Shown here one piece after another: positions 9,086 through 34,049 of a DNA stretch of 64,000 bases; positions within the stretch are counted from its first letter, which is position 1; each line of letters begins with the position of its first letter. Position numbers and translations under genes: made by a program. The DNA lies in contig NZ_CP108549.1 in the NCBI RefSeq assembly GCF_036010325.1, positions 7,998,001 through 8,062,000 on the forward strand. The letters run 5' to 3'. Below the pieces are notes generated by a model. It ran no database searches, was not told the DNA's origin, and saw only the letters and a list, made by a program, of their open reading frames with translations. Origin of the DNA: Streptomyces sp. NBC_01210 (GTDB lineage Bacteria > Actinomycetota > Actinomycetes > Streptomycetales > Streptomycetaceae).

Positions 9086-10690
9086 TCAGAGTGGAATATT
9101 GCTGTGCTTCTTCGGCAGCGGCGCGACCCGCTTGTTCCGCAGGGCGCGCAGCGCCCTGATCACGGAAATCCGCGTCTCGGACGGCGCGATGATGTCATCG
9201 ACGCAGCCGCGTTCGGCCGCGGCATAGGGGCTGGTCAGCGTCTCCTCGTACTGTTCGGTAAGGGACCGCTCCAGCGTCACGGGGTCCTCGGCCGCGGCGA
9301 GATCGCGGTGGAACAGCAGGTCGATGCCGCCGCGTGCGCCCATCACGCCAATCTCCGCAGTGGGCCAGGCGAAGCAGATGTCCGCGCCCAGCTCCTTCGA
9401 GCCCATCACCGCGTACCCGCCGCCGAACGCCCTGCGGGTGATGACGGTGATCTTGGGCACGGTGGATTCGATGTAGGCGAACCCGAGTTTGGCGCCACGG
9501 CGGATGATCCCCCCGTACTCCTGGACCGTGCCCGGCAGGAAGCCGGGAACATCGACCAGGGTCAGGATCGGAATGCCGAACGCATCGCAGAACCGGACGA
9601 ACCGAGCGGCCTTCTCCGCGGCGTCGATGTCCAGCGAGCCGGCCAGGTGCATGGGCTGGTTGGCCACCACGCCGATGGTGTGCCCTTCCATCCTGGCGAA
9701 CCCGCACAGAATGTTCTGCGCAAACTGCGGGTGCACTTCGAGCAGGTCCGCGTCGTCCACGAGCCGTTCGATCACCTGGTGCATGTCGTACGGCTGCTCG
9801 GAGACGTCCGGGATCACCGAGTCCAGTTCAAGGTCCCGGGCCGTGCCCGCCGGATCGACACGTGTGGGGTAACTCGGCGGCTCAGCAAGGTTGTTGCTCG
9901 GGAAATACGACAACAGGTCCTTGACGTACGCGAGCGCGTCCTCCTCGTCGGCCGCCATGTAGTGCGCGTTGCCCGTCCGCCGCGCATGAACGCTCGCCCC
10001 GCCGAGCTCTTCCAGGCCCACCGTCTCACCGGTCACCGAGCGGATCACGTCGGGACCGGTCACGAACATGTGTGAGGTCCGGTTGACCATGACGATGAAG
10101 TCCGTCGCGGCCGGGGTGTACACCGCGCCGCCGGCGCACACGCCCATGATGACCGAGATCTGCGGGATCATTCCCGACGCGGTGACCACCCTCCTGGCCA
10201 CCTGGCCGTACGCGGAGAGGGCCAGCACGCCCTCTTGGAGCCGCGCGCCGCTGGAGTCGTTCATACCGATCACCGGGCAGCCGATCTGCATGGCGATGTC
10301 GAGGAGCTTGCCCACCTTCTCCCCGAACACCTCGCCGACGCTGCCGTTGAAGGAGGTCGCGTCCTGGGCGTACACGCACACCTGACGGCCGTCGACGGTT
10401 CCCAGGCCAGTGATCACGCCGTCGCCCATCGGGCGTCGGCTGTCGATGCCGAAGTTGGTCGAGCGATGGCGGGCCAGCGGGTCGGTCTCCATGAAGGAGC
10501 CGTCGTCCAGGAGCAGTTCGATGCGCTCGCGCGCGGTGAGCTTTCCCAGTACGTGCTGCCGCCGCGCTGCCCGCGGCGATCCCGGCTCGCGTGCCAGCTG
10601 CTGCCGTTCCCTGAACTTCTCGATGCGCTCTGCGGTGGTGTGCCGTACGGCACGTGCCGGCTGGGGTGTGGACTCGGGCCGCGCGGTCAT
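9086..10690 (-). CDS. Acyl-CoA carboxylase carboxyltransferase (beta) subunit
   Basis: The 534-residue product is a full-length AccD5/PccB-type carboxyltransferase. Its N-terminal half has KLTARERIELLLDDGSF, GGAVYTPAATDFIVMV (acyl-CoA site) and SGARLQEGVLALSAYG. The C-terminal half has LVDVPGFLPGTVQEYGGII and AFGGGYAVMGSKELG. It transfers CO2 from biotinyl carrier protein to acetyl-, propionyl- or longer acyl-CoA, making malonyl-type extender units. No biotin carboxylase (alpha) subunit is encoded nearby, so it must borrow the primary-metabolism one. The start ATG (10690) overlaps the FMN-reductase stop by four bases. In the cluster it probably supplies the extender for the PKS or the KAS set. 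Confidence 0.92.
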   Translation of the reverse strand: MTARPESTPQPARAVRHTTAERIEKFRERQQLAREPGSPRAARRQHVLGKLTARERIELLLDDGSFMETDPLARHRSTNFGIDSRRPMGDGVITGLGTVDGRQVCVYAQDATSFNGSVGEVFGEKVGKLLDIAMQIGCPVIGMNDSSGARLQEGVLALSAYGQVARRVVTASGMIPQISVIMGVCAGGAVYTPAATDFIVMVNRTSHMFVTGPDVIRSVTGETVGLEELGGASVHARRTGNAHYMAADEEDALAYVKDLLSYFPSNNLAEPPSYPTRVDPAGTARDLELDSVIPDVSEQPYDMHQVIERLVDDADLLEVHPQFAQNILCGFARMEGHTIGVVANQPMHLAGSLDIDAAEKAARFVRFCDAFGIPILTLVDVPGFLPGTVQEYGGIIRRGAKLGFAYIESTVPKITVITRRAFGGGYAVMGSKELGADICFAWPTAEIGVMGARGGIDLLFHRDLAAAEDPVTLERSLTEQYEETLTSPYAAAERGCVDDIIAPSETRISVIRALRALRNKRVAPLPKKHSNIPL

Positions 10691-11295
10691 CTGGTTGCCC
10701 CCGCCATGGCCTCGCTCGAGCCACCGAACGCCATGGCGAATTCGGTCACTTGCCGGCCGACCGTCAGCAGCTGCGTCTCGAATCGGCGGCCGGTCTCGAT
10801 GTCGCTTGAGGTCAGAGGATGTTCGGTCGTGTTCAGCGTGACGCCCAACGGGGTCGGCCAGCCGCGCAGCGCGTGCACGATGGACCGCAGCGCGCACAGG
10901 GTGGTCCCTGCGGACTGCCACCCGGCGGCGGTGACCACACAGCCGACTGCACGCCCGTCCAGATAGGGCCGGGGGTCGTCACTGAGATCCTCCAGATAGT
11001 CCAGCGCGTTCTTGACCAGCCCCGAGACGCCGCCGTGATAGCTGGGGCTGGCCAGCAGCACGCCGTCCGCGCGGGCGAGTGCGTCGAGCAGTTCGAGGGC
11101 GGTCTCGCTGCGCTCCGTATGCTGCGGCTGGAAGAGCGGCAGCACGCCCAGAGATCCGGCATCGAAGAGACGGGTCCGGGCACCGGCCTCCGCCGCGCCC
11201 CGCAGCGCCATTGCCAGCGCCTTGTCCGTCGTCGATCCAGGTCGTCCCGTGCCGCCGATGCCGACGACCAATGGCTTCAACTCGCTCGGCCACAT
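10687..11295 (-). CDS. NADPH-dependent FMN reductase
   Basis: The 202-residue flavodoxin-fold protein of the SsuE/NADPH-FMN reductase family has VVGIGGTGRPGSTTDKAL at the phosphate-binding loop and LLASPSYHGGVSGLVKNALD at the flavin contact. It makes free reduced FMN from NADPH. The embedded luciferase-like monooxygenase in NRPS2 needs exactly this cofactor, so the pair is functionally coherent. I took the ATG at 11295; a TTG two codons earlier sits better behind GGGAG and is an alternative. It is co-transcribed with MbtH upstream and coupled to the carboxylase downstream (ATGA at 10690-10687). Confidence 0.88.
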   Translation of the reverse strand: MWPSELKPLVVGIGGTGRPGSTTDKALAMALRGAAEAGARTRLFDAGSLGVLPLFQPQHTERSETALELLDALARADGVLLASPSYHGGVSGLVKNALDYLEDLSDDPRPYLDGRAVGCVVTAAGWQSAGTTLCALRSIVHALRGWPTPLGVTLNTTEHPLTSSDIETGRRFETQLLTVGRQVTEFAMAFGGSSEAMAGATR

Positions 11296-11336: not shown

Positions 11337-11543
11337 TCAGCCGACGCGCACGCTGCGTGGGCGCAGATCCGTCCACACCTCTTCGATGTGAGCGAGGCAC
11401 TCCTCCTTGCTGCCGGAGAACCCCTCTGCGTGCCAGCCGTCCGGCATCGGCAGCGACACGTCCCAGATCGAGTACTGCTCTTCCTCGTTGAGCACTACTG
11501 CATAGCTGCCGGCTGCTTCCGGAGTGCTGCCGTGGTCCGCCAT
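11337..11543 (-). CDS. MbtH-family NRPS chaperone
   Basis: The 68-residue protein shows the family signature: [22 protein letters not shown] with the conserved Trp residues, then [20 protein letters not shown] ahead of RPRSVR. MbtH-like proteins bind adenylation domains and make them soluble and active. It lies between the amidohydrolase and the FMN reductase in the NRPS operon, so it presumably serves the three A domains here. Confidence 0.95.
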
Positions 11544-11561: not shown

Positions 11562-12797
11562 CTACTTGCGGGTGTCCTTGATGATGGTGCCGCCCTTCAT
11601 CACAAGGACGACGCGGTCGGGGTTGTCGAAGAGTTCGGGCTCGGCGAGCGGATCGAAGTCCACCGCGACGAGATCGGCGTACTTGCCCGCCTCGATCGAG
11701 CCGATCCTGTCCGCGACGCGCATGATGGAGGCGTTCACCGAGGTGGCCGACATGATCGCCTCCCGCGCACCGAGGATCTTGGCTTTGAGCGCGATTTCCA
11801 GGCCCCGCCGGTTCTGGTTCGGCCCGATGAGGTCGGAGCCGGAGCCGACGGGGACGCCGGCCTCCCGGGCGGCCAGCAGCCCGTCGGTCATGCCCTGCAT
11901 CGTGTCGCCGACGCGTTCGCGGATCTGCGGCGGCAGTCCGTGCTGTTCGAAGTTCTCCGTGAGGACCTGCGCGATGGACAGGGTCGGCACGAGGCTGACG
12001 TTGCCGGCCGCCATCATCGCGGCGGTTTCCTCGTCGATCCCGGTTCCGTGCTCGACGCACTCCACGCCCGCCTTCACGGCGTTGTGGATGCCCGCGACGT
12101 TGTGCGCGTGGACTGTGACGTAGGTGTGCCGGGCCCGTGCCTCGGTCACCGCCGTGGCGATCTCCTCGATGGTGAACTGGGTGTCGTCCAGCGAGTCGGC
12201 GATGGACACCACCCCGCCGGTGACTGCCATCTTGAGGAAGCTCGCGCCCTGCCTGAAACACTCACGAGCGGCCTTGCGCACCTCGTCACTGCCGTCGGAG
12301 ATACGGCCCACGGCGGTCAGCCCGCGCACCCGGAAATGAAACGTCTCATCCGGCGGCAGGAACGGCGAACCGAGGTGCCCGTGTCCACCGCACTGCACCA
12401 GGGGGGACGCGGACGCCCAGATCCTGGGCCCGGGCACGAGCCCACGGCCCACGGTGCGCAGCACTCCATGGTCGATCCCGCCGCAGTCGCGGACCGCGGT
12501 GAACCCGGCTTCGACGGTCTGGCGCAGCGTGCGGAAGATGTCCGCGGCCCGCTCGGCGACGGACAGTTCCATGTTGAGGATGGCCCGCGACTCGCTGGAG
12601 TGCCCGAGGTGGACATGCGCGTCGATGAGGCCGGGCAGCAAGGTCAGCCCGCTGAGGTCGACGAGGTCGGCATCGCGCGCCGGTCCCCTTACGTCCGCGT
12701 CGGCGATCCGTTCTCCGTCGATCAGCACCGAACCCCGGGGCACCGGGTCGCCGCCCAGTCCGTCGATGACCGTGGCGCCGGTCAGGAGTTGAGGCAT
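11562..12797 (-). CDS. Metal-dependent amidohydrolase (imidazolonepropionase-like)
   Basis: The 411-residue cytosolic TIM-barrel amidohydrolase keeps the metal ligands: HxH in LIDAHVHLG, a Lys in SFLKMAVTGG, His in YVTVHAHN and VEHGTG, and the final Asp in GSGSDL. The small N- and C-terminal beta-sandwich strands (LLTGATVIDGLGG, AGKYADLVAVDFDPL) are present. The family hydrolyses C-N bonds, including Xaa-Pro dipeptides and N-acyl groups. Placed 6 bp after the PKS stop, it likely acts on the peptide product, for example by removing a protecting residue or opening a ring. The reaction itself is inference. Confidence 0.88.
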   Translation of the reverse strand: MPQLLTGATVIDGLGGDPVPRGSVLIDGERIADADVRGPARDADLVDLSGLTLLPGLIDAHVHLGHSSESRAILNMELSVAERAADIFRTLRQTVEAGFTAVRDCGGIDHGVLRTVGRGLVPGPRIWASASPLVQCGGHGHLGSPFLPPDETFHFRVRGLTAVGRISDGSDEVRKAARECFRQGASFLKMAVTGGVVSIADSLDDTQFTIEEIATAVTEARARHTYVTVHAHNVAGIHNAVKAGVECVEHGTGIDEETAAMMAAGNVSLVPTLSIAQVLTENFEQHGLPPQIRERVGDTMQGMTDGLLAAREAGVPVGSGSDLIGPNQNRRGLEIALKAKILGAREAIMSATSVNASIMRVADRIGSIEAGKYADLVAVDFDPLAEPELFDNPDRVVLVMKGGTIIKDTRK

Positions 12798-12803
12798 GTC
12801 TCG

Positions 12804-15800
12804 TCACTTCTCCGTCCTGGTGGTGGTCGCGCCGCCGTCGGGCGCGGGCAGCAGTTGCCGGCGTACGAAGAACCCGAGCATCCGCTGGAAGAAGGAGGCG
12901 TCCAGGGCTGGTGCGGGTGCCAGGTTCGGCGTCCGCAGGACGCTTCCGCAGTCGATCGCGGGCATCCGCCGGTCGGGCACATCTCCGAGCATGGCCATCA
13001 GCGGTGCCAGGGCGTTGTCCTCGCCCTCACGGTCCACCTGCTCGATGAGCGCCGCACGCCACTCCTCGAAGGGCACGCTGCGCACGGGATACCCGAACTC
13101 CCTGATCCTCTGGAAGATGTGGTTCCACTCGAGCGGCTGCGGGTCGATGGTGTGGAACGTCCGGTTCCGGGATTCCGGCCGCTGGGACAGTCCGACGACC
13201 AGCTTCGCCAGGTGGTCCACCGTGCCGACGGACAGTTCGTACGCACGTAGCGGCGCAAGCCCCAGCTGGACGCATCCCTGGATGACTTTGGTGATGTAGT
13301 CCTCGCTGTTGGCGGCGCCGTTACGGCTGTCGCACAACACCCCGCCCGCGCGGTAGACGGACACCGGGATCCCGCGCTCCCGCGCAATCCCGACCAGACC
13401 TTCGGCCACCCATTTGCTCTGGCTGTACGAGGTGTCGTGACCGACCGGCGGAGGCAGCGGATCGTCCTCGCGGAGGGTGTCCCGCTCGCCGGTCATCGCA
13501 CCGGCGAGGACCGCCAGCGTGGAGATGTGATGCACGGGTTTGAGGCGCGACCGGGCAGCCAGCCGCAGAATCTCCTGGGTGCCGAGCACATTGGCCGACT
13601 TCAGGGCACGGTAGGGACGTACGAAGTTGACCCATGCGCCGCAGTGGTAGATGGCGTCGACCTCTGTGGCCAGCTCGTCGAAGCCGTCCGGCGTCAGGCC
13701 GAGCAGCGGCTTGGCCAGGTCGCCGGTCACCACGCGCAGCCGGTTCCCGGGCACCGCCAGGCCGTACGAGTCCAGCGCGGCGCGGACCCGTTCCACTCCC
13801 TCCGCCACGTCCGCGGCCCGTACGAGGCACAGGACCGTGGCGTCCGTACGTTCCAGCAGCTCGGCGCAGAGGAAAGCGCCGACGAAGCCGGTGGCGCCGG
13901 TGAGCAGCACGGCCCTCGGCGGTCCGTCGTGCGGAGCGGGCAGATCGCCCGCCCGGATGTCCTCGTCGAGCAGCACCTCGTCCTCGAGGACCGGGCCCGA
14001 CGGAACAGCCGGGGCATCCGTGCCGCCCAGCGCCCGTTCGACCATGGCGGCCAGCGCCGCCACCGTCGGCGCGCGCAGCACGTCCCGGGCGGCGAGGCCG
14101 GTGACGCCCATGCGCCGCAGCTGACGGGTCGCCTGCGTCACCATCAGCGAGTGCGCTCCCAGATCGAAGAAGTCGTCGTCGACTCCGATCCGGTCGACAC
14201 CCAGCAAGCTGCACCAGATGTCGGCTACTTGGCGTTCCGCCTCGGTGCGTGGAGCCACCTGCCCGTCGGCGTGGTCCCCGACCGCCTCGGATGCCGCATC
14301 CTCGAAGTCCGGCTCCGGCTCGGTGTGCGGCCGGGTCCGCTGCGCCTCGACCCAGTACCGCTTGCCCTGGAACGGATAGGTGGGCAGCGGCACACGGCGC
14401 GGGGCGGCCTCGCCGTGGAAGGCGTTCCAGTCCACGGGGACCCCCTGCTGCCACAACCGGCCGACGGCGGTGACCAGGTGGGCCAGATCGGGCGTCGGGT
14501 CGCGCGGCAGTCCCATCGTGGAGACCGCGACCGGAGCCGGCGCCATTCGCTGGGCGGTGGCCAGCGACGTCAGCGCCTTGCCCGGGCCGACCTCCAGCAG
14601 CATCCGGCCGGGCCGGTCCAGAACGCTGCGCACTCCGTCGGCGAACCGCACCGGCCGGCGCAGATGCTGCGCCCAGTACGCGGCGGATGTGGCCTCCATC
14701 GGAGTGATCCAGGTGCCGGTGACGCTGGAGACGAAGGGTATCTCCGGCTTGGACAGCGCAAGTTGCTCGACCTTGCGGGTGAATTCTTCGAGATAGGGAT
14801 CGACCATCCACGAGTGGCTGGCCACCGGCACGCTCACCTTGCGGCAGTCGATGTCGCGAGCGCGCAGATCCGTGAGGAGCGCCGCGATGTCCTCGTCCGG
14901 CCCTGCGACCACCGTCAGATCGGGCGCGTTGACCGCCGAGACCGACACTCGGTCGGACAGCAGGTGCAGCAGCTCCTCCTCGGGCAGCTGCACGACGAGC
15001 ATCCGGCCCGGCGGCATCTTCGCGAACAGCTCGCCCCGGGCGAGGGTGATGTCGAGCGCGCCCGGGAGGGTGAACACTCCGGCGAGGCAGGCAGCAACGT
15101 ACTCGCCGAGGCTGTGCCCGATCATCGCTGCTGGGCGTACGCCCCAGGCCATCAGCTGACGCGCCAGCGCGTACTCGATGGTGAACAGCGCGGATACCAC
15201 GCCGGCCCCCTGGCCGCGTCCCATAGTGGCGGCGCCACCGGCGAGTTCCTTGCCGCTCAGGGCGGTGAAGGCGGCGGGGAAGAGCAGCCTGCGCAGGTCG
15301 AACCCAAGCCTCGGCGCCAGCAGCTCGGCACACCGGTCCACCTCGGTACGGAACACCTTCTCCGAGCGGTAGATGTCCAGGCCCATGTCCGGGTGCTGCA
15401 TGCCGCCGCCGGGGAAGGCGAAGACCGCCTCGTGCTTCCCGTCGGGCGCGGCTCTGGTGATCAGCCGGTCCGGCTCCTCGCCCCGCAGCGCGCGCACCGC
15501 GTCCGCCGTGTCCGTACAGACCGTGAACCTCCGCAGCCCGAAGCTCCGTCGGCCGTCCTGCAGCGTGAACGCCACGTCGGCCAGGGTCTGGGACGAATCC
15601 GCGCGGTCGAGGTGGGCGGCCAGCCGCTCGGTCGCGGCATCCACGGTGGTCCGGTCACGTCCGGAGACGGGCAGCAGCTGCCACTCCCGCGGCTGCGCCG
15701 GCGAGGGCTCGGCGGCTGCGGCCGGTGCCTGTTCGATGACGACGTGTGCGTTGGTGCCGCCCACCCCGAATGAGCTCACCCCGGCCCGCCGCGGTCCGCT

Positions 15801-17039
15801 CGCCGGCTGCCAGTCGCGGGCGCCGTTCGGCACATAGAACGGCGTGTGTTTCAGCCGGAGTTCGGGGTTGGGCCGGGTGAAGTTCGCGGTGGGAGGGATC
15901 TGCGCGTGATGTACGGCGAGGGCGGCCCGCATGAGTCCGGCGACGCCCGCCGCCGCGTCCAGATGCCCGATGTTGGCCTTGACCGAGCCCAGCGCGCACT
16001 GGCCCACGGCGTCGGCGGACAGCTGGAACGCCTGCGTCAGTGCGGTGACCTCGATCGGGTCGCCCACTTGAGTGGCGGTGCCGTGCGCCTCCAGATAGCC
16101 GATGGTGGAGGGATCGACGTTGGCAATCGCCAGCGCCGAAGCGATCACCCGGGCCTGCCCGTCGACGCTGGGGGCGGCGAATCCCGCCTTCATCGAACCG
16201 TCGTTGTTGACCGCGGAACCCCGGATCACGGCGTAGATGTGGTCACGGTCGGCCAGCGCCTCGGACAGCCTGCGCAGCACGAGCACCACAGCGCCGTTGC
16301 CCGGCACCGTGCCGCCGGCCGTCGCGTCGAACGGGCGGCAGCGGCCGTCGCCGCTGAAGAGCCCGCTGTCCGCGACCGGATAGCCGGCCTTCAGCGGCAC
16401 ATTGACCGTCACCCCGCCGGCCAGCGCGACATCGCACTCGTAACTGAGCAGCGACTGGCAGGCCACGTGGGTGGCGACCAGCGAGGTCGAGCAGGCCGTC
16501 TGCACCGTGTAGGCCGGGCCGGTCAGGTCGAGCAGATAGGCGATCCGGGTGGCAAGGAAGTCCTTGTCGTTGAACATCCGCGTCGCGGGGGCCATCGGCG
16601 AGCGCAGGAAGCGCGTATTGGTGTTCAGGTTCTGGGCCATGTACTTGTTCATGAACGAGCCTGCGAACACGCCGACGGTGCCGTCGAAGCGTGCCGGGTC
16701 GTGACCGAAGTCCTCCATGGCCTCCCAGGCGGTCTCGCAGAACATGCGCTGCTGGGGGTCCATCGTCTCGGCCTCGCCCGCGTTGAAGCCGAAGAACGAG
16801 GCGTCGAAGTGGTCCGCGCCTTCCAGATGACCGGACGCGGGGACATAGTCGGGATCGGCCAGCGTCTCCTCGTCGATGCCCGCGGCCGCCAGCTCCTCCC
16901 GGCCGAACCAGGTGATCGACTCCACCCCGTCGCGCATATTGCGCCAGAAGTCATCGACCGTCCTGGCCCCCGGTACTCGGCAGGCCAGGCCGACGATGGC
17001 CACCGGCTCAACGCCGTCCAGCTCCTCGCCGCCCGTCAC
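12804..17039 (-). CDS. Type I PKS module KS-AT-ACP-thioester reductase
   Basis: This is a 1411-residue single module. The KS (about 10-440) has Cys183 in QTACSTSL, His319 in EAHGTAT and His359 in ANIGHL. The AT (about 535-845) has Ser643 in GHSLGEYVAA; the VASHS motif near 742 is neither the clear malonyl nor methylmalonyl signature, so the extender is unsure. The ACP (about 930-1000) attaches phosphopantetheine at Ser964 in GAHSLM. The terminal reductase (about 1043-1400) has LLTGATGFVG and Y1205SQSK. There is no KR, DH or ER, so the product entering the reductase should be a beta-ketoacyl thioester, released with NADPH as an aldehyde or alcohol. The start overlaps the NRPS2 stop (ATGA), which fits Gly-loaded NRPS2 passing its chain here. 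Confidence 0.93.
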   Translation of the reverse strand: MTGGEELDGVEPVAIVGLACRVPGARTVDDFWRNMRDGVESITWFGREELAAAGIDEETLADPDYVPASGHLEGADHFDASFFGFNAGEAETMDPQQRMFCETAWEAMEDFGHDPARFDGTVGVFAGSFMNKYMAQNLNTNTRFLRSPMAPATRMFNDKDFLATRIAYLLDLTGPAYTVQTACSTSLVATHVACQSLLSYECDVALAGGVTVNVPLKAGYPVADSGLFSGDGRCRPFDATAGGTVPGNGAVVLVLRRLSEALADRDHIYAVIRGSAVNNDGSMKAGFAAPSVDGQARVIASALAIANVDPSTIGYLEAHGTATQVGDPIEVTALTQAFQLSADAVGQCALGSVKANIGHLDAAAGVAGLMRAALAVHHAQIPPTANFTRPNPELRLKHTPFYVPNGARDWQPASGPRRAGVSSFGVGGTNAHVVIEQAPAAAAEPSPAQPREWQLLPVSGRDRTTVDAATERLAAHLDRADSSQTLADVAFTLQDGRRSFGLRRFTVCTDTADAVRALRGEEPDRLITRAAPDGKHEAVFAFPGGGMQHPDMGLDIYRSEKVFRTEVDRCAELLAPRLGFDLRRLLFPAAFTALSGKELAGGAATMGRGQGAGVVSALFTIEYALARQLMAWGVRPAAMIGHSLGEYVAACLAGVFTLPGALDITLARGELFAKMPPGRMLVVQLPEEELLHLLSDRVSVSAVNAPDLTVVAGPDEDIAALLTDLRARDIDCRKVSVPVASHSWMVDPYLEEFTRKVEQLALSKPEIPFVSSVTGTWITPMEATSAAYWAQHLRRPVRFADGVRSVLDRPGRMLLEVGPGKALTSLATAQRMAPAPVAVSTMGLPRDPTPDLAHLVTAVGRLWQQGVPVDWNAFHGEAAPRRVPLPTYPFQGKRYWVEAQRTRPHTEPEPDFEDAASEAVGDHADGQVAPRTEAERQVADIWCSLLGVDRIGVDDDFFDLGAHSLMVTQATRQLRRMGVTGLAARDVLRAPTVAALAAMVERALGGTDAPAVPSGPVLEDEVLLDEDIRAGDLPAPHDGPPRAVLLTGATGFVGAFLCAELLERTDATVLCLVRAADVAEGVERVRAALDSYGLAVPGNRLRVVTGDLAKPLLGLTPDGFDELATEVDAIYHCGAWVNFVRPYRALKSANVLGTQEILRLAARSRLKPVHHISTLAVLAGAMTGERDTLREDDPLPPPVGHDTSYSQSKWVAEGLVGIARERGIPVSVYRAGGVLCDSRNGAANSEDYITKVIQGCVQLGLAPLRAYELSVGTVDHLAKLVVGLSQRPESRNRTFHTIDPQPLEWNHIFQRIREFGYPVRSVPFEEWRAALIEQVDREGEDNALAPLMAMLGDVPDRRMPAIDCGSVLRTPNLAPAPALDASFFQRMLGFFVRRQLLPAPDGGATTTRTEK

Positions 17040-20000
17040 GCCCCACTCCGTTCCGCTCGCCGCTTCGCCTGCCGGGCGAACGCGTCGGCCCGCCTGCCCG
17101 CCGCCTTGCGCACCCGGTCCAGTCCGTCGCCGCCCCCCGCCGCGCCTGCCGGACCCGCGCCGCCTGCCGCACCCGCTGTGTCGAACGCGGCGACCAGAGC
17201 CCGCGCCGTGGGGTAGCGGAAGATGTCCACGAGGGACAGCCGATCGCCCAGCACGGGCTGCAACCGCGCCCTGGCCTGCACGGCGAGCAGCGAATTTCCG
17301 CCTGCCTCGAAGAAGTTGTCGTCCATGCCGATCCGGTCCGCGTGCAGCACCTCGGCCAGTGCCTCGGCCACGTGACGCTCCTTGTCGTTGTCCGGCGGCC
17401 GGTAGACGGCAGCCCGCCGGTTCTCCAGGGCGGGCAGCCTTGCGCGGTCCACTTTCCCGTTGGCCGTCATCGGCAGAGCGTCGACGAAGACGACGTCCGC
17501 GGGAACCATGTAGTCCGGCAGTGACTTGGCTCCGAACGCCTGCAGTGCGGGACCGGTCAGGGCGTCCGTTCCGTGCGGGACGGGCACGCAGTAGGCAACA
17601 AGGCGGCTGTGCCCGCCGTCCCCGCGCACCGTGACGAGGACGCTTCGTACATCGGGATGTGCGCCCAGCGTGTTCTCGATCTCGCCGAGCTCGATGCGGT
17701 GGCCGAGGACCTTGACCTGGTGGTCCAGGCGGCCGAGGAACTCCAGCTCACCGTCTGCACGCCGACGCACCAGGTCGCCGGTGCGGTAGAGCCGCGCCCC
17801 CGGCTCCGCGGAGAAGGGGTCCGGCATGAAGCGTTCCGCGCTGAGCGCGGGCCGGTCGAGATAGCCGCGCGCGACACCGGGGCCGCCGAGGAGCAGCTCC
17901 CCGGGGACGTTGGCGGCCGTCGGCCGCAGATAGGCGTCGACGACATACGCCCGTACGTTGGCCAGTGGCCGCCCGATCGTCACCGACGTCACCGGCCGGG
18001 GACCGCCCACTGGCGCCGTCGTCGCCCAGACCGTCGCCTCGGTGGGCCCGTACATGTTGTGCACCCTGCCGGGCAGCAGTGTTGCCAGCCGCTCGGCGAG
18101 CGGGGCGGGCAGCGCCTCGCCGCCGACCAGCAGCCGGTCCAGCCCGGCCAGGGCGGCGGCGGCCTCCTCGTCCTCGGCCAGCAGCCCCGCCACCGAGGGC
18201 GTGCACTGCAGATGGGTGACCCCGTGCCGTACGAGCTGTGCCGCAATGGGCTCGTCGGCCTGCGCGGTGCGACGCCGGGACTCGCTCAGCTCGCGTGTCG
18301 TCGCGAGATGTTCCAGGGAGGCGAGCACTCGCTCGTGCTCGACGCCGAAGTCGATGAGGCAGGCGACCTCGTCCACCTCGATCGACTTGAGCCGGTCGAT
18401 CACATCGGCGCAGTGCTCCGGCGTGCCCAGCAGCCCCGACGTTTCGAAGAACCGGTCGAAGGCCTGCGCGACGAGGTGGTCGAGCTCGTCCTCGGGCAGC
18501 GTACGCAGATCGATCTCTCGCCCCATCGCCCGGCCGAGACCGGTCAGCAGGTCGAAGGAGGACTTGATGTACGCGCACAGGGGCTCGCGGACGGTCTCGC
18601 GCACCTCGTCGGTGTCGGTCCCGACGAAGGTGTGGAGCATGACCGTCACCTGGCCGTTGCCCGGATGCCCGGCCTCGCGCCAGGCCTGCCGGTAGAGCTG
18701 GATCTTCTCCGCGAGCTGCTCGACGCTGTGCCCGAGCAGATGGGTCAGCAGCCCCGCGCCGCTCTCTCCGGCGAGCTGGAAGGTCTCCGGGCTGCGTGCG
18801 CTGGTGACCCACACCGGAAGTTCGTCCTGCAGGGGCGGCGGGAAGATGCGTACGTCCGTCTCGGCGTCGGCCCCGTTGCGACGGCGTACGGTCTGCCCTC
18901 GCCACAGCCGGCGCAGCTCGTCGAGACCGCTCATCATGGCTTTCTTGCGATCGGCGTAGGCGTCGGGCGCAAGTACGAAGTCGTCCGGCTGCCAGCCGGA
19001 GGCGACCGAGATGCCGACCCTTCCGTGGGAGATGTTGTCCACGACGGACCACTCCTCGGCTACCCGGAGCGGATCGTGCAGAGGCAGGACGACGCTGCCC
19101 GCCCGTACGGCCACGCGCTCGGTGATCGCCGCGATCGCGGACGCGGTGACCGACGGATTCGGGTACAGGCCGCCGAACTCGTGGAAGTGCCGCTCCGGCG
19201 TCCATACGGCCGAGAACCCGTTCCGGTCGGCGAACTTGGCGCCTTCGGTCAGCAGCCGGTAAGCATCGCCCGGCTCGCCTCCCCGGTCGCCGCCGAAGTA
19301 GAACAGGCTGAGGTCCACCGGCTGGGCCTGCACGGAGGAGGTGACGGTCATGCCGCCCGCCCCGGCGCTGTGCGCACTCGGTTCGTCGCCACGGATGACC
19401 ACCCGGTAGCCGTGTGCCAACGTCCACAGCAGTTCCAGCACTGAGATGTCGAAGGACATGCTGGTGACGGCAAGCCAGGTGTTCGGGGAGTCCCCGCCGA
19501 GCACCTTGTCCATGCCGCCGAAGAACGTCTGGACATTGCGGTGCGAAACCATCACGCCCTTGGGCCTGCCGGTCGAGCCCGAGGTGTAGATCACATACGC
19601 CAGATGCTGCGGCGAGACGGTGCCGGCCGGGCTGGGCCCGGCAGGTGTCACGTCCCGCTCGGGCGCATCGAGCAGCAGCAGCGAAGCGGGCAACCCCGCG
19701 ATGCGACGGGCCAGGGACACTCGCGTCACGATCACCGGCGTGCGCGAGTCCTCGGCCATGAACGCGATCCGGTCCGCCGGATAGCCGGGGTCGAGCGGCA
19801 GATACGCGCCGCCGGCCTTGAGGACGGCCAGCAGTGTGACGACCAGGTCGGGCGAGCGGTCCAGATAGACGCCGACGGGAACGTCCGCGGCGACGCCGTA
19901 TGCACGCAGCCGGGCGGCCAGCGCCTCGGCGCGCCGGTCCAGTTCGCGGTATGTCATCGCGTCCTGCGGCTGCTGGTCCGCACCCAGCAGTGCTGGGGCG

Positions 20001-21499
20001 TCCGGTGTCCGCGCGGCCTGCTCTGCAATCAGCTCGTGGACCAATACGCCCGGTACGGGCTCGGCGGGCGGGTTCCAGTCCACGAGGACGTGGCGGGTCT
20101 CGTCCGGTGACAGCACGGGCAGTTGACGCAGCGGGGTGTCCGGGGCGGCCACGGCGGCGGCGAGGACAGCGCTGAATTGATCGCCGATCGAGAGCGCCGT
20201 GTCCTTCTCGAAGAGGTCGGTGCTGTACTCGAGGCGGGCCGACAGCCGGTCGCCGACGCGGGTCAGGCTCAGGGTCAGGTCGAACTTGGCGGTCTCGGTG
20301 TCGCCCGGCACCAGCCGTACCTCGCAACCCGGCAGGACCAGGCCGTCCGCATCACCCTCGTGGTAGCTGAACATGAGCTGGAAGAGCGGGTTGTGGGCCG
20401 GGTCACGGCTGGGCTGAAGCTCCTCCACCAGCTTCTCGAAGGGCAGCTCCTGATGCGCGACCGCGGACCGGCTCTCGTCCCGGGCGCGAGCCACCAGCTG
20501 CTGGAAGGTCGGCTCGCCGGAGACGTCAACGCGCTGCACCACGGTGTTGGTGAAGAAGCCGATGAGCGGCTGCAGGCCGGCCTTGGTCCGTCCCGCCACG
20601 GGCGATCCGACGATCACCTCGTCGCCGCCGGCCCGGGAGTGCACCACGGCAGTGAACGCGGCCAGCAGCACCGCGAACGGCGTGGCGCCGCTGGAGCGGG
20701 CCAACTCGCCCACCCGCTCGGTGACATCGGGGCCGATGGCGAAGTCCAGATGGTCGCCCAGGTGGCTCTGCGTGGGAGGCCTCGGACGATCCGCGGGCAG
20801 CGTCGCGAGGGCCGGGGCCCCGGCCAGCCGCTCCCGCCAGTAACCCAGCATCTCCTCCAGCGGCCCCCCCCGTGAGCCGGGCCATCTGGTCCTCGGCGAA
20901 GGCTGCGTACTGCCTCTCCACCGGTGCAAGCTCCGGCTCCCGACCGTCCATGAAAGCCCCGTACAGGGCGGACAGTTCGCTGCCGAGGACGCCGAGCGAC
21001 CAGCCGTCACAAGCGATGTGATGCAGGCTCAGGCAGAACCAGTGTTCGTCGGGCGCGAGCCGCAGCAGCAGGGCCCGTACGGGCACGTCCGAAGCCAGAT
21101 CGAACGGCCGGCCGGCCTCCTGCCGGCACTCCTGCTCCGCCTCGGCCGCCGGGTCGGGCCGGGCGGACAGATCGCGGACCGGGATGGTCACGGGCTCCGC
21201 CGGCCGGACGAACTGGCGCGGCGTGCCGTCCACCGACCGGTAGACCGTACGCAGCACGTGATGTCGGCGCACCACCTGGCCGAGCGCGTGCTCCATGGCG
21301 GCGACGTCCAGCGGGCCGCTGATCCGGTAGATCAGGGGGACGACGTAGACAGCGCTGCCCGGGTCGAGCTGGTCGAGGAACCACAGGCGCTGCTGAGGGT
21401 AGGAGAGAGGGTAATGGCGCTCCGAGATACGCCGCTTGAGCCGCTCCGCGAGCCGGGCACGCCGGTCGTCGGCCGTGCCGCCGGAGAGAGCGCCGTCCG

Positions 21500-21503
<4 letters not shown>
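17036..21503 (-). CDS. NRPS module C-A(luciferase-like monooxygenase)-PCP, Gly-type, with an apparent frameshift
   Basis: The condensation domain (HHIACDGWS) starts at the ATG 21503, which overlaps the NRPS1 stop. The reading frame breaks in a run of eight C (20864-20871); with seven, one 1488-residue protein results and LTGGPLEEMLGYWRERL reads through. The A domain has YTSGSTGRPKG and NMYGPTEATVWA. Between motifs A4 (FDISVLELL) and A5 sits an insert of about 350 residues of the natural-product luciferase-like monooxygenase type (VDLSLFYFGGDRG, then WTPERHFHEFGG). The specificity residues I extract, D-I-L-Q-L-G-M-V-W, are almost the standard glycine code. The PCP is FFEAGGNSLL. MtaG/MelG of the myxothiazol type have the same architecture. 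Sequencing error at the C-run is likelier than a broken gene. Confidence 0.88.
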
Positions 21504-26623
<5,120 letters not shown>

Positions 26624-26698
26624 TTCTTTGGGCTCCCCGATTGCACTCGACCTGCGGTGACTGACTAAGCCTTTCTGGCATATCCCGCACAAGATCGC

Positions 26699-27565
26699 TC
26701 ACTGCGACGGAGTGAAGCTCCACCGCGCAGTTTCTGCTGATTCGATGACAAGTCGCGAGGTCTCGCCGAATCGGAACTCCCTGGGGATCGAGGATTCGTA
26801 TACCTCGGGGTCCAGGCCGATCTCGATTTCCGTTACGCGTTCCAGCTGATCGCCGGTCTCCAGCCGGACGGTGAGGCCCGGACCACGCAGTTCATGTACT
26901 CCCGGAGCAGTTTCGGCCCCGGTGTAGCCGAAGACCGCGAGCGCGTCGGCGAGGCGTCGGCCGCGCTCCGCGGCAACCGAGATCGTCACGCCGGTGACAT
27001 CCCTCATCAGCCGGTTTCCCCCCGCCGGAGCCCCGAGCGCCGCGTCCAGATAGTGCTTCCGGGGCAGCGTCCCGTCCGGTGCCGGCTGGGCGCCGAGGGA
27101 CTGGAAGTACTCGGGCGTCACCTCGTTGAGGAAGAGCAGCAGCGGGCTGGCCTCACCCAGGTCGACGCTGATCAGGTGGTACCAGGGCTGCTGCTCGTCC
27201 GTGCCTTCCACCGAGCGACGTACCAGGTCATGGTGGTACTTGACCTCGCCGGAGGCGTCCAGCAAGGCGCGGGCACGCTGCGCGGAGCCCGGCTCCTCGA
27301 ACGAGAACACCAGGCCGCCCGTGAGAGGCGACGCGCTGGGTAGATCACTGCCGAACAGCTCGATCAAAGTGTTCTCACCGGCCACTCCGAGTGTGGAGTA
27401 CTGCCCGGCGACCGAGCTTTCCGCCTCCTTGCGCTTGATCCTCCCGAAGCGCTGAGTCAGGAATCCACTCGCCGACACATCGCGATGCGCGGCCCCGTCG
27501 AGCAGCACCATGACGTGGTCGAGGCGAGGCACCGGCCTCCAGTTCGCTGCAGATCCACTCGTCAA
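26699..27565 (-). CDS. VOC-superfamily-like protein of unknown function
   Basis: The protein has 288 residues. It begins RLDHVMVLLDGAAHRDVSASG and later VTGVTISVAAERGRRLADAL, two beta-alpha-beta-type openings reminiscent of the glyoxalase/dioxygenase (vicinal oxygen chelate) fold and of DUF5829-type Streptomyces proteins. Metal ligands cannot be assigned with confidence. The start is the TTG at 27565, with GGAG seven bases before it. It is the first gene of the NRPS operon, 75 bp ahead of NRPS1, so it is probably a tailoring, resistance or binding protein for the product. I do not recognise a specific function. Confidence 0.6.
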   Translation of the reverse strand: MTSGSAANWRPVPRLDHVMVLLDGAAHRDVSASGFLTQRFGRIKRKEAESSVAGQYSTLGVAGENTLIELFGSDLPSASPLTGGLVFSFEEPGSAQRARALLDASGEVKYHHDLVRRSVEGTDEQQPWYHLISVDLGEASPLLLFLNEVTPEYFQSLGAQPAPDGTLPRKHYLDAALGAPAGGNRLMRDVTGVTISVAAERGRRLADALAVFGYTGAETAPGVHELRGPGLTVRLETGDQLERVTEIEIGLDPEVYESSIPREFRFGETSRLVIESAETARWSFTPSQ

Positions 27566-28702: not shown

Positions 28703-28760
28703 GAGCATGCCGGGCATGCCCAACGTGCTGAGCGTGCCGCACATGGGCGACATCCGATGA
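28692..28760 (+). CDS. 22-aa leader-like ORF coupling SARP to KAS III
   Basis: The ORF begins ATGA over the SARP stop and ends with a TGA lying inside the KAS III ATG, so both junctions are 4-nt overlaps. The peptide is Met-rich (MNTVSMPGMPN...). No family is recognised. It may simply carry ribosomes from the SARP message to KAS III, because no ribosome-binding site is seen before 28757. From the predicted SARP promoter (-10 at 28697) its own start would not be transcribed. Confidence 0.4.
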   Translation: MNTVSMPGMPNVLSVPHMGDIR

Positions 28761-29758
28761 CCCGGGCCGCGGTACTCACCGGCATCGGCGGCTGCCTGCC
28801 GCCCCGCGCGGTGTCCAACGAGGAGATTGCCGCGGCGTCCGGTGGCTCCGACGAGTGGATACAGTCCCGGACCGGCATCCGCCAGCGGTACTTCGCCGCG
28901 CCCGGAACGGCCACCTCGGATCTCGCGGTCGGGGCCGGCGAGCAGGCGCTCAAGTCCTCGGGCGACCCATATGTGGACACCGTCGTCGTGGCGACGTCCA
29001 CGCCCGACCGGCCCTGTCCGGCGACCGCGCCCACTGTGGCGACGCGGCTCGCGCTGTCCGGCGCGGCGGCGTTCGACATTTCCGCCGTGTGCACGGGATT
29101 CATCTACGGTCTCGCCAACGCCGCCGGGCTGATCGCGTCCGGTTCGTCCACCCGCGCCCTGGTCATCGGGGCGGACACGTTCTCCAGCATTCTCGACCCG
29201 ACGGACAGGACGACCTCGGCGATCTTCGGTGACGGCGCGGGCGCGGTGGTGCTGCGCGCGGGGGAGCCCGACGAACCGGGCGCCATCGGCCCGTTCGACC
29301 TCGGCAGCGACGGGGAGGGCCGCGATCTCATCACCGTGCGTGCCGACGGCTCGGAGCAGCGCCTGACCGGGCTGCCCGCCGAGGCCGCGGACCGCTACTT
29401 CGCGATGGCCGGCAAGGAGGTCTTCCGGCACGCGGTACAGCGCATGGCGAAATCCTCTACCACGGCGCTCGACCGGGCCGGCTGGCGCCGTTCCGACGTC
29501 GACTGGCTGGTCGCCCACCAGGCCAACGCGAGGATCCTCAACCGGCTCGCCGACGAACTCGACATCCCGCGCGAGCGCGCCGTCAGCAACATAGCCGAGG
29601 TCGGCAACACCGCGGCCGCGTCCATCCCGCTGGCCCTCCACCACGCGCATGCCACCGGGATGCTGCGCCCCGGTGACCAGATACTGCTCACCGCCTTCGG
29701 CGGCGGTCTCACCTGGGGCTCGTCCGTACTGACGTGGCCGGAGACCGGCCTGTCGTGA
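28757..29758 (+). CDS. 3-oxoacyl-ACP synthase III (FabH/RedP-like)
   Basis: The 333-residue KAS III has the catalytic Cys in ISAVCTGFIYGL (about 114), His in VAHQANARI (about 255) and Asn in EVGNTAAASIPL (about 285), plus FGDGAGAVVL. It condenses an acyl-CoA starter with malonyl-ACP to begin a chain. The order KAS III, ACP, KAS II on consecutive genes copies the RedP-RedQ-RedR arrangement that makes the acyl starter of prodiginines. Reductases and dehydratase are absent and would come from the cell's fatty acid synthase, if the chain is reduced at all. Confidence 0.93.
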   Translation: MTRAAVLTGIGGCLPPRAVSNEEIAAASGGSDEWIQSRTGIRQRYFAAPGTATSDLAVGAGEQALKSSGDPYVDTVVVATSTPDRPCPATAPTVATRLALSGAAAFDISAVCTGFIYGLANAAGLIASGSSTRALVIGADTFSSILDPTDRTTSAIFGDGAGAVVLRAGEPDEPGAIGPFDLGSDGEGRDLITVRADGSEQRLTGLPAEAADRYFAMAGKEVFRHAVQRMAKSSTTALDRAGWRRSDVDWLVAHQANARILNRLADELDIPRERAVSNIAEVGNTAAASIPLALHHAHATGMLRPGDQILLTAFGGGLTWGSSVLTWPETGLS

Positions 29759-29850
29759 CACCGGCCCGGCGTGACACCGGGGGCGGTGCCACTGCCCCCG
29801 GCCCCTGCGCACCACCACAGGACAGCACCACCGGAGAAAGGGAATCCGTG

Positions 29851-30099
29851 ATGACAGCCATGTACGACACCCTCGCCGACATTCTGGTCAACCGTTTCCA
29901 GGTCGAGCGATCGGAGATCAAACCGGACGTGACTTTCGAGGACCTGGAGATGGACTCTCTCTTCCTCGTGGAGCTGCTGCTGGTGGTGGAGAAGGAACTG
30001 GGCGTAAAGATCAGCGACGACGCCGCGTCGCCCCGCGACACCATCGGGCGGGCGGCCGAGGTGATCGAGGAGCAGGCGGCCGCGGCGAAGACGTCATGA
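29851..30099 (+). CDS. Discrete acyl carrier protein
   Basis: This 82-residue ACP has the phosphopantetheine site in LEMDSLFLVELLLVVEKELG. The flanking DVTFEDL and GVKISDDAA are as usual for type II carrier proteins. I chose the ATG at 29851, with GGGA seven bases upstream; GTG 29848 or ATG 29860 are alternatives. It lies between KAS III and KAS II, and its stop overlaps the KAS II start (ATGA). It should carry the chain built by those two enzymes. Confidence 0.92.
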   Translation: MTAMYDTLADILVNRFQVERSEIKPDVTFEDLEMDSLFLVELLLVVEKELGVKISDDAASPRDTIGRAAEVIEEQAAAAKTS

Positions 30100-31319
30100 C
30101 CGTTGCTCCCGTCGCCGTCACGGGGCTCGGCCTGGTCACCGCCGCGGGCATCGGCACCGAAGCGAGCTGGCGAGGCGTGTGCGAAGCCCTGCCGACGGCC
30201 AAACGCGATCCCGCCCTCGAAGGCCTGCTGGTCGATATCTCGTACACGGTCCCGGGGTTCAGCGCGGCCAAGCTCGTCGGGCGCCGCAGTACCCTCGTCC
30301 ACGACAGATTCGTCCAACTGGCCATCGTCGCCGCGCGGGAGGCCGTTGCCGACTCCGGGCTCGACCCCAAGACGTGGGACGGCGCGCGCGTCGGCGTCGT
30401 CATGGGCTGCGGGCTCGGCGGCGTCTCGACCTGGGAGCAGCAGCACCGGACCCTGCTCTCCGAAGGGCCGGGCTCGGTCTCCGCGCTGCTGATCCCCCTG
30501 CTGGTGCCGAACATGGTCGCGGGTCATCTCGCCATGGAGTTCGGCGCCCGCGGACCCAATTTCGTCACCGCGACGGCCTGCGCCTCGGGCGCGACCGCGA
30601 TCGGAGTCGCGACACAGCTGCTGCACGACGACCGCTGCGATGTGGTGATCACGGGCGGCAGCGAAGCGGGTGTGAGCCCGTTGATTGTCACCGGGTTCGC
30701 GCAGATGGGGGCGCTGTCCCGACGGCTGGACGAACCGGCCGCCGCGTCCCGCCCGTTCGACGTGGATCGTGACGGCTTCGTCATCGGCGAGGGAAGCGGC
30801 GTACTGATCCTGGAACGGGAGACGGACGCACGGGCCCGTGGGGCGCGCGTCCGCGCCAGGATCGCGGGGTACGGAGCCTCCGCCGACGCCCACCACATGA
30901 CGGCCCCGGACCCGCAGGGCGTCGGCGCCCGACAGGCCTTGGAGGCGGCGCTGGCCTCGGCCGACGTGTCCCCGGGCGACGTCGACCACGTCAACGCGCA
31001 CGGCACCTCGACGCCGCTGAACGACGCGGCCGAGTCCAAAGTTCTGCACCAGGTGCTGGGCACGCGTGCGACGGTGACGTCCGCCAAGGGCGCGGTCGGT
31101 CACTCCCTCGGTGCAGCGGGCGCGATCGAGGCGGCGCTGACCGTGCTCACCCTGGAGAACGAGACCGTGCCACCGACGGCGAACCTGGAGAACCTGGATC
31201 CGGAAATCGAGCTGGACATCGTCGAGAAGGGCCCCCGAGCCCAGCACATCGATGTGGCAGTGAGCAACTCGTTCGGCTTCGGCGGCCAGAACGCGGTCCT
31301 GGTCTTCACCTCGGCGTAA
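30096..31319 (+). CDS. 3-oxoacyl-ACP synthase II (FabF/RedR-like)
   Basis: The 407-residue KAS II keeps the complete Cys-His-His triad: TATACASGATAIG (about 165), VNAHGTSTPLND (about 303) and KGAVGHSLGAAGAIE (about 338), with SNSFGFGGQNAVL at the end. An intact Cys shows it is a chain-elongating enzyme and not a chain-length factor. It elongates the acyl-ACP started by KAS III. No chain-length-factor partner is encoded, so this is a fatty-acid-like and not an aromatic type II system. Confidence 0.93.
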   Translation: MTVAPVAVTGLGLVTAAGIGTEASWRGVCEALPTAKRDPALEGLLVDISYTVPGFSAAKLVGRRSTLVHDRFVQLAIVAAREAVADSGLDPKTWDGARVGVVMGCGLGGVSTWEQQHRTLLSEGPGSVSALLIPLLVPNMVAGHLAMEFGARGPNFVTATACASGATAIGVATQLLHDDRCDVVITGGSEAGVSPLIVTGFAQMGALSRRLDEPAAASRPFDVDRDGFVIGEGSGVLILERETDARARGARVRARIAGYGASADAHHMTAPDPQGVGARQALEAALASADVSPGDVDHVNAHGTSTPLNDAAESKVLHQVLGTRATVTSAKGAVGHSLGAAGAIEAALTVLTLENETVPPTANLENLDPEIELDIVEKGPRAQHIDVAVSNSFGFGGQNAVLVFTSA

Positions 31320-31366
31320 AAGCTCCCTCACCCCAAACCCGACGACCCGTCAACGGAGGTCGGCCC

Positions 31367-32932
31367 GTGGCCGAATCGCTCAGCAACGGTCCCTTCGACA
31401 TCATCGTCGTGGGTGCCGGTTCCGCCGGTTGTGTCGTAGCGCGACGGCTGATGGACCAGGGCGCGAACGTCCTGCTTCTGGAAGCCGGCGGCCAGGCCAC
31501 CAACCCGGCCATCGACGACCCGCTGCGGTTCGGTGAACTGTGGTTCAGCGAGCAGGACTGGGCGTACCGCACCACGCCTCAGGAGCACGCGGCCGGCCGC
31601 AGACTGCACTGGCCGCGCGGCCGGGTGCTGGGCGGGTCGAGTGCGCTCAACGCGTTGATCTACGCCCGGGGCGCGGCGCTGGACTACGACCACTGGGCCT
31701 ATCTCGGCAATGACGGCTGGTCGTGGCGGGACGTGTTGCCGGTCTTCCGGGCCATCGAGGACTACGACTCCGGGGCGGACGAACTGCACGGCTCGGGCGG
31801 GCCGCTGCCGGTGCTCACCAAGTACCACGCCGATCCGATCCACGACGCGCTGATCCAGGCGGCGTCGGAGACCGGTATCCCCTTTCAGCCGGACTACAAC
31901 TCAGGTAGCCCTGAGGGGATTTCGAAGGCCCAGTTCACCATTGCCGACGGCCGCCGGTGCAGCGCGGCCGCGGCCTATCTCGACCCGGTCGCCCACCTGC
32001 CCGGCCTTACCGTGATCACCGGGGCCCGCGTGCGGCGCGTACTCCTCGAAGGCAGCCGTTGTGTCGGCGTGGAGTGGCTGCGGGAGGAGATCGTCGAGAA
32101 GGCCACCGCCCGCGCGGAGGTGGTGATCAGCGCAGGCGCGATCGAGTCGCCCCGGCTGCTGATGCTGTCCGGCATCGGCGCCGCCGCCCAGCTGCGCTCC
32201 ATGGGAATCGATGTGGTCGCCCATCTTCCGGGCGTCGGACGCAACCTGCACGACCACGTCCTGGCACCCGTCATCTTCAGCACAGAGCGCCCCGTCGGTC
32301 GCCCCTCGCCGGGCCTCGGCCCCGCCCAGACGCATCTGTTCTGGCGCAGTCGGCCGGGGCTGCCGGTGCCGGACCTCCAGCCGCTGCACTTCCCGGTCCC
32401 CATGTACCAGCCGGGGATGACAGGGCCTCCCAGTGGCTTCACCCTGCAGGCCGGGATCGTCCGGCCCACTTCCCGGGGGGCGATCCGGCTGACCGGCGCG
32501 CAACCGGAGGACGAGCTGCTCATCGACCCCGGCACACTGCGTACGGGAGCGGACGTGGACAGCCTGGTGGCCGCCACGGTCTTGTGCCGGGACATCGGAC
32601 GCTCGTCGGTCCTGCGTGAGGAGTGGGGCGCCCGTGAGCTGTACCCGGGCCCCGACGTGGGCGAAGTCGTCGGCGACCCGGAACTGCGCGAATATCTGCG
32701 GCGCACGGTGACGACTTATCACCACCAGTCAGGCACCTGCAAAATGGGCGTGGACGCCGATGCCGTCGTCGATCCGCAGCTGCGGGTGTACGGCATCGAC
32801 GGACTGCGGGTCGCCGACGCCTCCGTGTTCCCGGCGATCACGACGGGCAACGTCCATGCGCCTGCCCTGATGGTCGGGGAGCAGGTCTCCCGGTTCATCG
32901 CAGCCGACCACGGGACGGCCTGGGCCGCCTAG
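31367..32932 (+). CDS. GMC-family FAD oxidoreductase
   Basis: The 521-residue flavoprotein of the glucose-methanol-choline family has the Rossmann motif VVGAGSAGCVVARRLMDQGA, the first GMC signature RGRVLGGSSALNALIYARG, the second VISAGAIESPRLLMLSGIG, and catalytic-site regions YHHQSGTCKMG and GNVHAPALMVGEQ. It oxidises an alcohol to a carbonyl, or a relative reaction such as dehydrogenation, using O2. The start is GTG with GGAGG seven bases upstream. It follows KAS II by 47 bp in the SARP-controlled operon and probably tailors the product or its acyl chain. Confidence 0.92.
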   Translation: MAESLSNGPFDIIVVGAGSAGCVVARRLMDQGANVLLLEAGGQATNPAIDDPLRFGELWFSEQDWAYRTTPQEHAAGRRLHWPRGRVLGGSSALNALIYARGAALDYDHWAYLGNDGWSWRDVLPVFRAIEDYDSGADELHGSGGPLPVLTKYHADPIHDALIQAASETGIPFQPDYNSGSPEGISKAQFTIADGRRCSAAAAYLDPVAHLPGLTVITGARVRRVLLEGSRCVGVEWLREEIVEKATARAEVVISAGAIESPRLLMLSGIGAAAQLRSMGIDVVAHLPGVGRNLHDHVLAPVIFSTERPVGRPSPGLGPAQTHLFWRSRPGLPVPDLQPLHFPVPMYQPGMTGPPSGFTLQAGIVRPTSRGAIRLTGAQPEDELLIDPGTLRTGADVDSLVAATVLCRDIGRSSVLREEWGARELYPGPDVGEVVGDPELREYLRRTVTTYHHQSGTCKMGVDADAVVDPQLRVYGIDGLRVADASVFPAITTGNVHAPALMVGEQVSRFIAADHGTAWAA

Positions 32933-34048: not shown

Positions 34049-34049
34049 G

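Follow-up and report, generated by a model that had tools for sequence, protein, structure and literature searches.

In the myxothiazol and melithiazol modules, an oxygenase is inserted between motifs a4 and a5 of a Gly adenylation (A) domain, and the proposed route leads through alpha-hydroxylation and cleavage of the carbinolamide to release by a TE domain (PMC10204066). The same source places the insert of SolF (solanimycin) at a8-a9 and proposes alpha-hydroxylation there too, with the hydroxyglycine retained and the chain continued, open-chain hydroxyglycine being rare and prone to break. The first three modules of the necroxime line (OXY, DH and MT) have been proposed to convert a Gly primer to an oxime side chain (PMC7318616), and the free-standing Sky39 forms the hydroxyglycine of skyllamycin, which is kept in skyllamycin-type peptides (PMC9321520). 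For 38 corallorazine-like clusters whose Gly A domain contains a MOx, the authors inferred truncated products; their reference cluster ends in T-TD (PMC11342130). According to PMC8739492, luciferase-like monooxygenases (LLMs) of PKS pathways either alpha-hydroxylate polyketide chains or oxidise them in Baeyer-Villiger fashion, and the monooxygenase domain of PuwE has been proposed to hydroxylate the polyketide part (PMC4219810). The LLM family, the insertion site, the pairing with Gly and the retention of an oxidised glycine are each already known from print, and passages of PMC10951976, PMC12144821, PMC10127204, PMC9396620 and PMC12971057 have no direct bearing on the module described here.

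The window analysed is a stretch of 64,000 nucleotides from Streptomyces sp. NBC_01210 (NZ_CP108549.1, positions 7,998,001 to 8,062,000), and it holds the following features, numbered from its first letter.

9086-10921, minus strand: acyl-CoA carboxylase carboxyltransferase subunit (PF01039; TIGR01117 under its cut-off; true start uncertain)
10687-11295, minus strand: NADPH-dependent FMN reductase (PF03358, 88.9 bits)
11337-11543, minus strand: MbtH-like protein (PF03621)
11562-12797, minus strand: amidohydrolase (nearest NCBIfam model Xaa-Pro dipeptidase, 232.5 bits, under the cut-off of 500)
12804-17039, minus strand: PKS, KS-AT-ACP-TR (TR, thioester reductase; domain searches)
17036-21010, minus strand: ORF with the remaining C domain, A-N, LLM, A-C and PCP (domain searches)
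17186-17371, minus strand: PCP (PF00550, residues 1214-1275)
17453-18271, minus strand: A domain, C-terminal part, A5-A10 (TIGR01733 from residue 914, PF13193 to 1186)
18299-19312, minus strand: embedded LLM (TIGR04020, 520.5 bits, residues 567-904; structure match 6ket)
19379-20026, minus strand: A domain, N-terminal part, to beyond A4 (PF00501, residues 329-544)
20526-21503, minus strand: ORF encoding the initial portion of the C domain in the A(LLM) module (PF00668 positions 2-184)
20864-20871: frame change point of the module, an 8-base homopolymer (C8)
21500-26692, minus strand: NRPS 1, A-PCP-C-A-PCP, codes DAFTVAAVW and DAFFLGGTF (Pfam, codes)
26699-27565, minus strand: DUF5829 protein adjoining the NRPS (PF19147)
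28757-32932, plus strand: KAS III, ACP, KAS II and GMC oxidoreductase genes

By Pfam, the first A domain of NRPS 1 has no C domain before it. The sequence-only reading had placed the A(LLM) module at 17036-21503 and joined it to the PKS by an ATGA overlap; the PKS as next gene stands, but the C-A(LLM)-PCP module occupies two reading frames in this assembly, with the break inside the C domain, its overlap with the PKS gene is GTGA, and the ATGA lies upstream, between the stop of NRPS 1 and the start of the ORF at 20526-21503. Alignment of the window to the intact protein P0001 (1488 aa) breaks at 20869-20871, inside the C8 run, and the relatives in loci L009 and L010 (1480 aa each) are likewise unsplit. 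The PKS, with KS, AT, ACP and TR and with the KS Cys and AT Ser in their motifs (TACSTS and GHSLGEY), is a cis-AT module with reductive release.

The presence of an LLM between A4 and A5 was confirmed by its match to positions 1-339 of the 341 in TIGR04020 (MupA/Atu3671-type LLM), whose curated cut-off is 244.45 bits; among the 18 matches to this model in the whole genome, it alone exceeds the cut-off. In an AlphaFold2 prediction (32-row alignment, mean pLDDT 84.3), the LLM takes the family fold, with the A core formed around it, and a pTM of 0.64 that leaves the orientation of A domain and LLM unfixed. The closest solved LLM is the PuwE monooxygenase domain (6ket, TMt 0.92, 51% identity), and the predicted A core matches engineered TycA over 383 residues at 1.9 Å. 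The conserved LLM positions are retained, which, together with the model, supports a domain that looks intact. For two close pairs, the window against L009 and against L010, NG86 estimates of dN/dS were 0.060 and 0.054 for the LLM, 0.20 and 0.23 for the C part, 0.23 and 0.22 for A-N, 0.20 and 0.21 for A-C, 0.11 and 0.11 for KS, 0.18 and 0.14 for AT, and 0.20 and 0.22 for TR, so that the LLM is the most constrained of the large domains compared in both pairs; the short domains gave 0.05 and 0.11 (PCP) and 0.16 and 0.07 (ACP).

A scan of genome contigs matched 345 stretches, 331 of which encoded relatives; we kept the best 80 loci, with 84 LLMs (81 embedded in A domains), and these 81 modules are thus a sample by similarity and no census. 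The next domain was a KS within 2.6 kb in 23 modules and a KS further on in 5, a C domain in 9, a TE in 6 and a TR in 1; the remaining 37 had none from a tblastn panel made up of the window's own domains and one TE from P0102, and so may hold off-panel domains or run into a contig edge. In the taxonomic order to which the window belongs, Streptomycetales, an LLM over the cut-off is present in 127 of 293 genomes. Ten of the best 29 loci fetched from these 127 genomes were A-embedded, and the start of a KS came next in four, two of which (L126 and L127) share their contigs with L037 and L019. In a phylum-wide sample, where at most two candidates per genome were scored, the A(LLM) unit appeared at E ≤ 1e-150 in only 3 of 396 genomes, its own included, and is therefore not common. 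Of the relatives that the sequence-only reading had proposed for comparison, A-Ox modules followed by a KS were available, but no LLM was found under the names MtaG, MelG or lobatamide among the best 120 of 7949 and of 7998 scoring matches. We take the first two to be the myxothiazol and melithiazol A-MOx modules, and lobatamide presumably starts from a Gly-OXY primer module, as necroxime does. The term MtaG-like therefore rests on the papers and on architecture, namely that of L033, in which PKS domains are followed by C-A(LLM)-PCP-TE. In two loci from the window's genus, L124 and L125, A-C-A(LLM)-PCP is followed by genes for KS-AT-ACP-C-A-PCP-C; these form a separate lineage, in which Gly(LLM) stands in the middle of a long hybrid line (L124, 2431-9442; L125, 2356-9367). 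A Burkholderia glumae plasmid (L089, 8209-18146) encodes an NRPS with A(LLM) and then a thioester reductase gene, along with a fatty acyl-AMP ligase, two acyl-CoA dehydrogenases, an ACP, a P450 and an FMN reductase, and resembles the corallorazine-like MOx clusters of PMC11342130. The NCBI name for A(LLM) NRPS modules is 'FMN-dependent luciferase-like monooxygenase'; ichD of the ichizinone cluster carries this name in PMC12144821 and might be an A(LLM) module, not a free enzyme.

The nine code residues of the window's A domain are DILQLGMVW, with Q, L, G, M, V and W supplied by the C-terminal part. Their reading as a Gly-type code is supported. D[IM][LV]Q[LMF]GM[VI]W describes 84 of the 84 other embedded A domains (81 from the kept loci, 3 from plasmids), although code position 322 is biased to M, since HNMYGPTE, among the six peptides used in the scan, spans it. 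The mapping of code positions and the assignment to Gly follow what we assume to be the usual scheme. With the window, the Gly-type code is present in 85 of 85 embedded cases, and the unit is accordingly a Gly-type A domain plus LLM, irrespective of the downstream domain.

In a tree of 70 LLMs (18 near-duplicates omitted), with three LLMs that lie outside A domains and adjoin PKS domains as outgroup, the window falls inside a set of 22 (SH-aLRT 99), of which 20 are followed directly by a KS, one by a TR and one by a KS further on, the KS being displaced in two. A careful tree, again of 70 rows (L089, L063 and L061 dropped; L124, L126 and L128 included, the cuts of L124 and L128 being over-long), recovered the same set and one duplicate with support of 100/99. 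The clade spans nine genera (Streptomyces, Kitasatospora, Actinokineospora, Actinophytocola, Micromonospora, Nocardia, Jidongwangia, Salinispora and Amycolatopsis) and one Acidobacteriota MAG (L024), in which the KS lies 3.8 kb downstream. Loss of the PKS in the Nocardia locus L016 was considered and ruled out, a KS-AT gene being present on the opposite strand; its AT motif is GHGDGEY. A single origin of KS coupling is unsupported, as the six KS-coupled rows outside the clade need four label changes in the careful tree, two of them forced by starred branches.

Two main architectures make up the clade. Group 1 (the window, L009-L015, L017 and L028, with L024 and L025 similar) has KS-AT-ACP-TR, and group 2 (L018-L023, L037, L046 and L076) has KS-AT with no TR seen. 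In six of the nine group 2 loci (L018, L021, L023, L037, L046 and L076), the AT motif reads GEGDGEY instead of GHSLGEY, and L019, L020 and L022 gave no match to the motif pattern. The loss of the AT Ser suggests that in the six GEGDGEY loci a carrier-bound extender may be delivered in trans, a route that we presume to be like that of FkbH. Pfam searches, run for L021 alone among the group 2 loci, identified acyl-CoA dehydrogenase and HAD-hydrolase genes after its KS-AT (15608-18118), in which the Ser is replaced. The A1/A2 codes are DAFT[VI]AAVW/DA[FY]F[LIM]GGTF in group 1 (the L015 contig is without A1), DAFTVAAVW/DAFFLGATF in L016, DAFTIAAVW/DAWFLGHVV in L024, DAFLLGAVI/DPFFMGLTL in L025, and DVQFLTLVK-like/DAWFLGHVV in eight of nine group 2 loci (L046 begins inside the module). 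The peptide part is therefore variable, whereas the pairing of Gly(LLM) with a KS is constant. We take the A1 code of the window to be aromatic-like and the A2 code branched aliphatic-like.

All 22 clade members have H at LLM residue 197, where 44 of the other 45 embedded LLMs have Q; a motif pattern for this residue gave H in 59, Q in 83 and no match in 89 of 231 database proteins. As a marker of cutting against non-cutting enzymes it was rejected, for KS-coupled LLMs outside the clade (L040, L049, L057, L071, L124, L125 and L128) keep Q, and H197 thus marks lineage only. No residue separating KS-coupled from TE-coupled LLMs in general was found.

Between the amidohydrolase and carboxyltransferase genes of the operon lie those for the MbtH-like protein and the FMN reductase. 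The latter likely supplies FMNH2 to the LLM, as would fit a two-component, FMNH2-using enzyme, and gene and predicted fold together speak for a putative FMN-dependent oxygenation. By tblastn, relatives of the reductase occur in five of the nine other group 1 loci (L009-L012 and L017); within the locus DNA there was no match in L013, L014, L015 (a short contig), L028, L016, L024, L025, any group 2 locus or any other locus. MbtH relatives were found in L009-L012, L017, L013, L016, L025 and L028, in eight of the nine group 2 loci (L046 excepted) and, outside the clade, in L030 and L042. The carboxyltransferase subunit possibly serves extender-unit supply, and the amidohydrolase could trim the peptide after release; relatives of the latter adjoin the PKS-TR gene in L009-L011, L016 and L028. 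On the other side of the line, DUF5829 relatives stand beside the NRPS in L009-L014, L024, L025 and L028, and in group 1 loci the NRPS is also neighboured by relatives of several genes from the KAS III/ACP/KAS II/GMC block. A free-standing second LLM, of F420 type (33176-34057, minus strand; TIGR03619, 239.3 bits, over the cut-off), shares a block with a GMC oxidoreductase, two O-methyltransferases and a 4HBT thioesterase. An AurF-like N-oxygenase gene lies near the cluster (4193-5365, minus strand; PF11583, 56.4 bits), and a relative 84% identical to it lies near the cluster in L013 (24436-25470). The A1/A2 codes and the neighbouring genes pointed to no known compound.

From the domains, the Gly-type code, the LLM score, the KS and AT motifs, the operon and its conservation in the clade, we infer collinearity, the A1 and A2 substrates, the alpha carbon as the site of oxidation, retention of the chain, the role of the FMN reductase and the product as follows. 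The line would join aa1, aa2 and Gly, add one polyketide extension and release its product reductively. With FMNH2 from the operon's reductase, the LLM would alpha-hydroxylate the PCP-bound glycyl or peptidyl-glycyl thioester; the uncut chain would pass to the KS and be extended once, and the thioester reductase would set free an aldehyde or alcohol bearing the oxidised glycine. Alpha-hydroxylation of the PCP-bound glycyl without obligatory cleavage is the most likely reading from sequence and analogy, and we put it at roughly 0.52. The KS kept through the clade indicates that the module is no MtaG-type terminus, and chain retention is further supported by the constraint on KS, AT and TR, by the nine related modules followed by C and by the mid-line order in L124 and L125; that gene order and those nine modules would be hard to reconcile with a compulsory release at Gly. 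Against it count the frame split in this strain's assembly, the four of nine other group 1 loci in whose DNA the FMN reductase was not found, the failure of any LLM residue to separate KS-coupled from TE-coupled domains in general, the scarcity of the A(LLM) unit in the phylum-wide sample, the truncation that the authors of PMC11342130 read from corallorazine-like MOx domains, and the rarity and fragility of open-chain hydroxyglycine (PMC10204066).

That the enzyme must act without cutting, as had been claimed, goes too far: non-cleaving action is likely given the conserved KS, and cleavage leaving a glyoxylyl-PCP keeps a small share of the probability. The dipeptide would then leave as an amide and the glyoxylyl-PCP would prime the KS, so that the products would be the peptide amide and a small aldehyde of polyketide origin. 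The route reported for myxothiazol and melithiazol starts from the same insertion site (PMC10204066), truncation was inferred for MOx clusters ending in TD (PMC11342130) and the operon includes an amidohydrolase, but a KS kept throughout the clade, the cost of keeping KS, AT and TR under constraint for glyoxylate only, and the mid-line positions of related modules make such splitting unlikely, if the least so of the alternatives. Slightly less probable still is a pre-condensation oxidation of the Gly-PCP amine by the LLM, to N-hydroxyglycine or an oxime, as may occur on the Gly primers of oxime pathways; the Gly of necroxime, proposed to end up as the oxime side chain in a PKS product (PMC7318616), is a primer, whereas in the window a C domain precedes the A domain, so that the Gly nitrogen is expected to be acylated. 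A silent relic that passes Gly on unoxidised, for which the frame split and the ability of SolF to skip hydroxylation (PMC10204066) might speak, is improbable in view of the LLM's constraint, its conserved positions and the reductase in the operon. Action on the KS-extended beta-keto chain and not on Gly, after the manner of PKS LLMs (PMC8739492) and of the three PKS-adjacent LLMs that form the outgroup, is the least probable of all, given a Gly-type A host in every one of the 85 embedded cases, KS following or not.

In the literature searched, which covered few subscription journals, we found no description of this cluster or its product, nor of a Gly module with the LLM at A4-A5 that passes its chain to a cis-AT KS and on to reductive release. 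The kind of Gly-LLM unit by which chains are ended in myxothiazol is here wired to a KS and, in group 1, to a reductase. A comparison of both wirings would show what governs the fate of an alpha-hydroxyglycyl chain, cleavage or continuation. That choice matters for the engineering of amides and of oxidised-glycine units, and the comparison could also lead to the compound made by a cluster common to several actinomycete genera. Should the chain be split after all, one assembly line would make two products across nine actinomycete genera and the Acidobacteriota MAG.

The suggestion that this is a different use of the domain is not supported as it stands, precedents being SolF, the necroxime OXY, Sky39 and the corallorazine-like MOx with TD, and KS- or C-followed A(LLM) modules being frequent among the 81. 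By the published description, MtaG and MelG share with the window a Gly-activating A domain with the monooxygenase at a4-a5 (PMC10204066), but their lines end with a TE and an amide is released, whereas the window's module has KS-AT-ACP-TR next. SolF module 4 likewise has a Gly A domain with a flavin monooxygenase, a retained hydroxyglycine and a continuing chain, and differs in its insert at a8-a9 and in the peptide modules that carry out the next extensions (PMC10204066). The corallorazine-like clusters combine a MOx inside a Gly A domain with a reductive release domain (PMC11342130) but pass directly to T-TD, with no PKS module between. PuwE, the closest solved LLM, sits in a hybrid PKS-NRPS after an aminotransferase (PMC4219810). 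Necroxime, by its published description (PMC7318616), also has an oxygenase-modified Gly in a PKS line, but there Gly is the primer, the product an oxime and the PKS of trans-AT type, whereas the module described here carries, in two frames, the C domain that a Gly-OXY primer module lacks.
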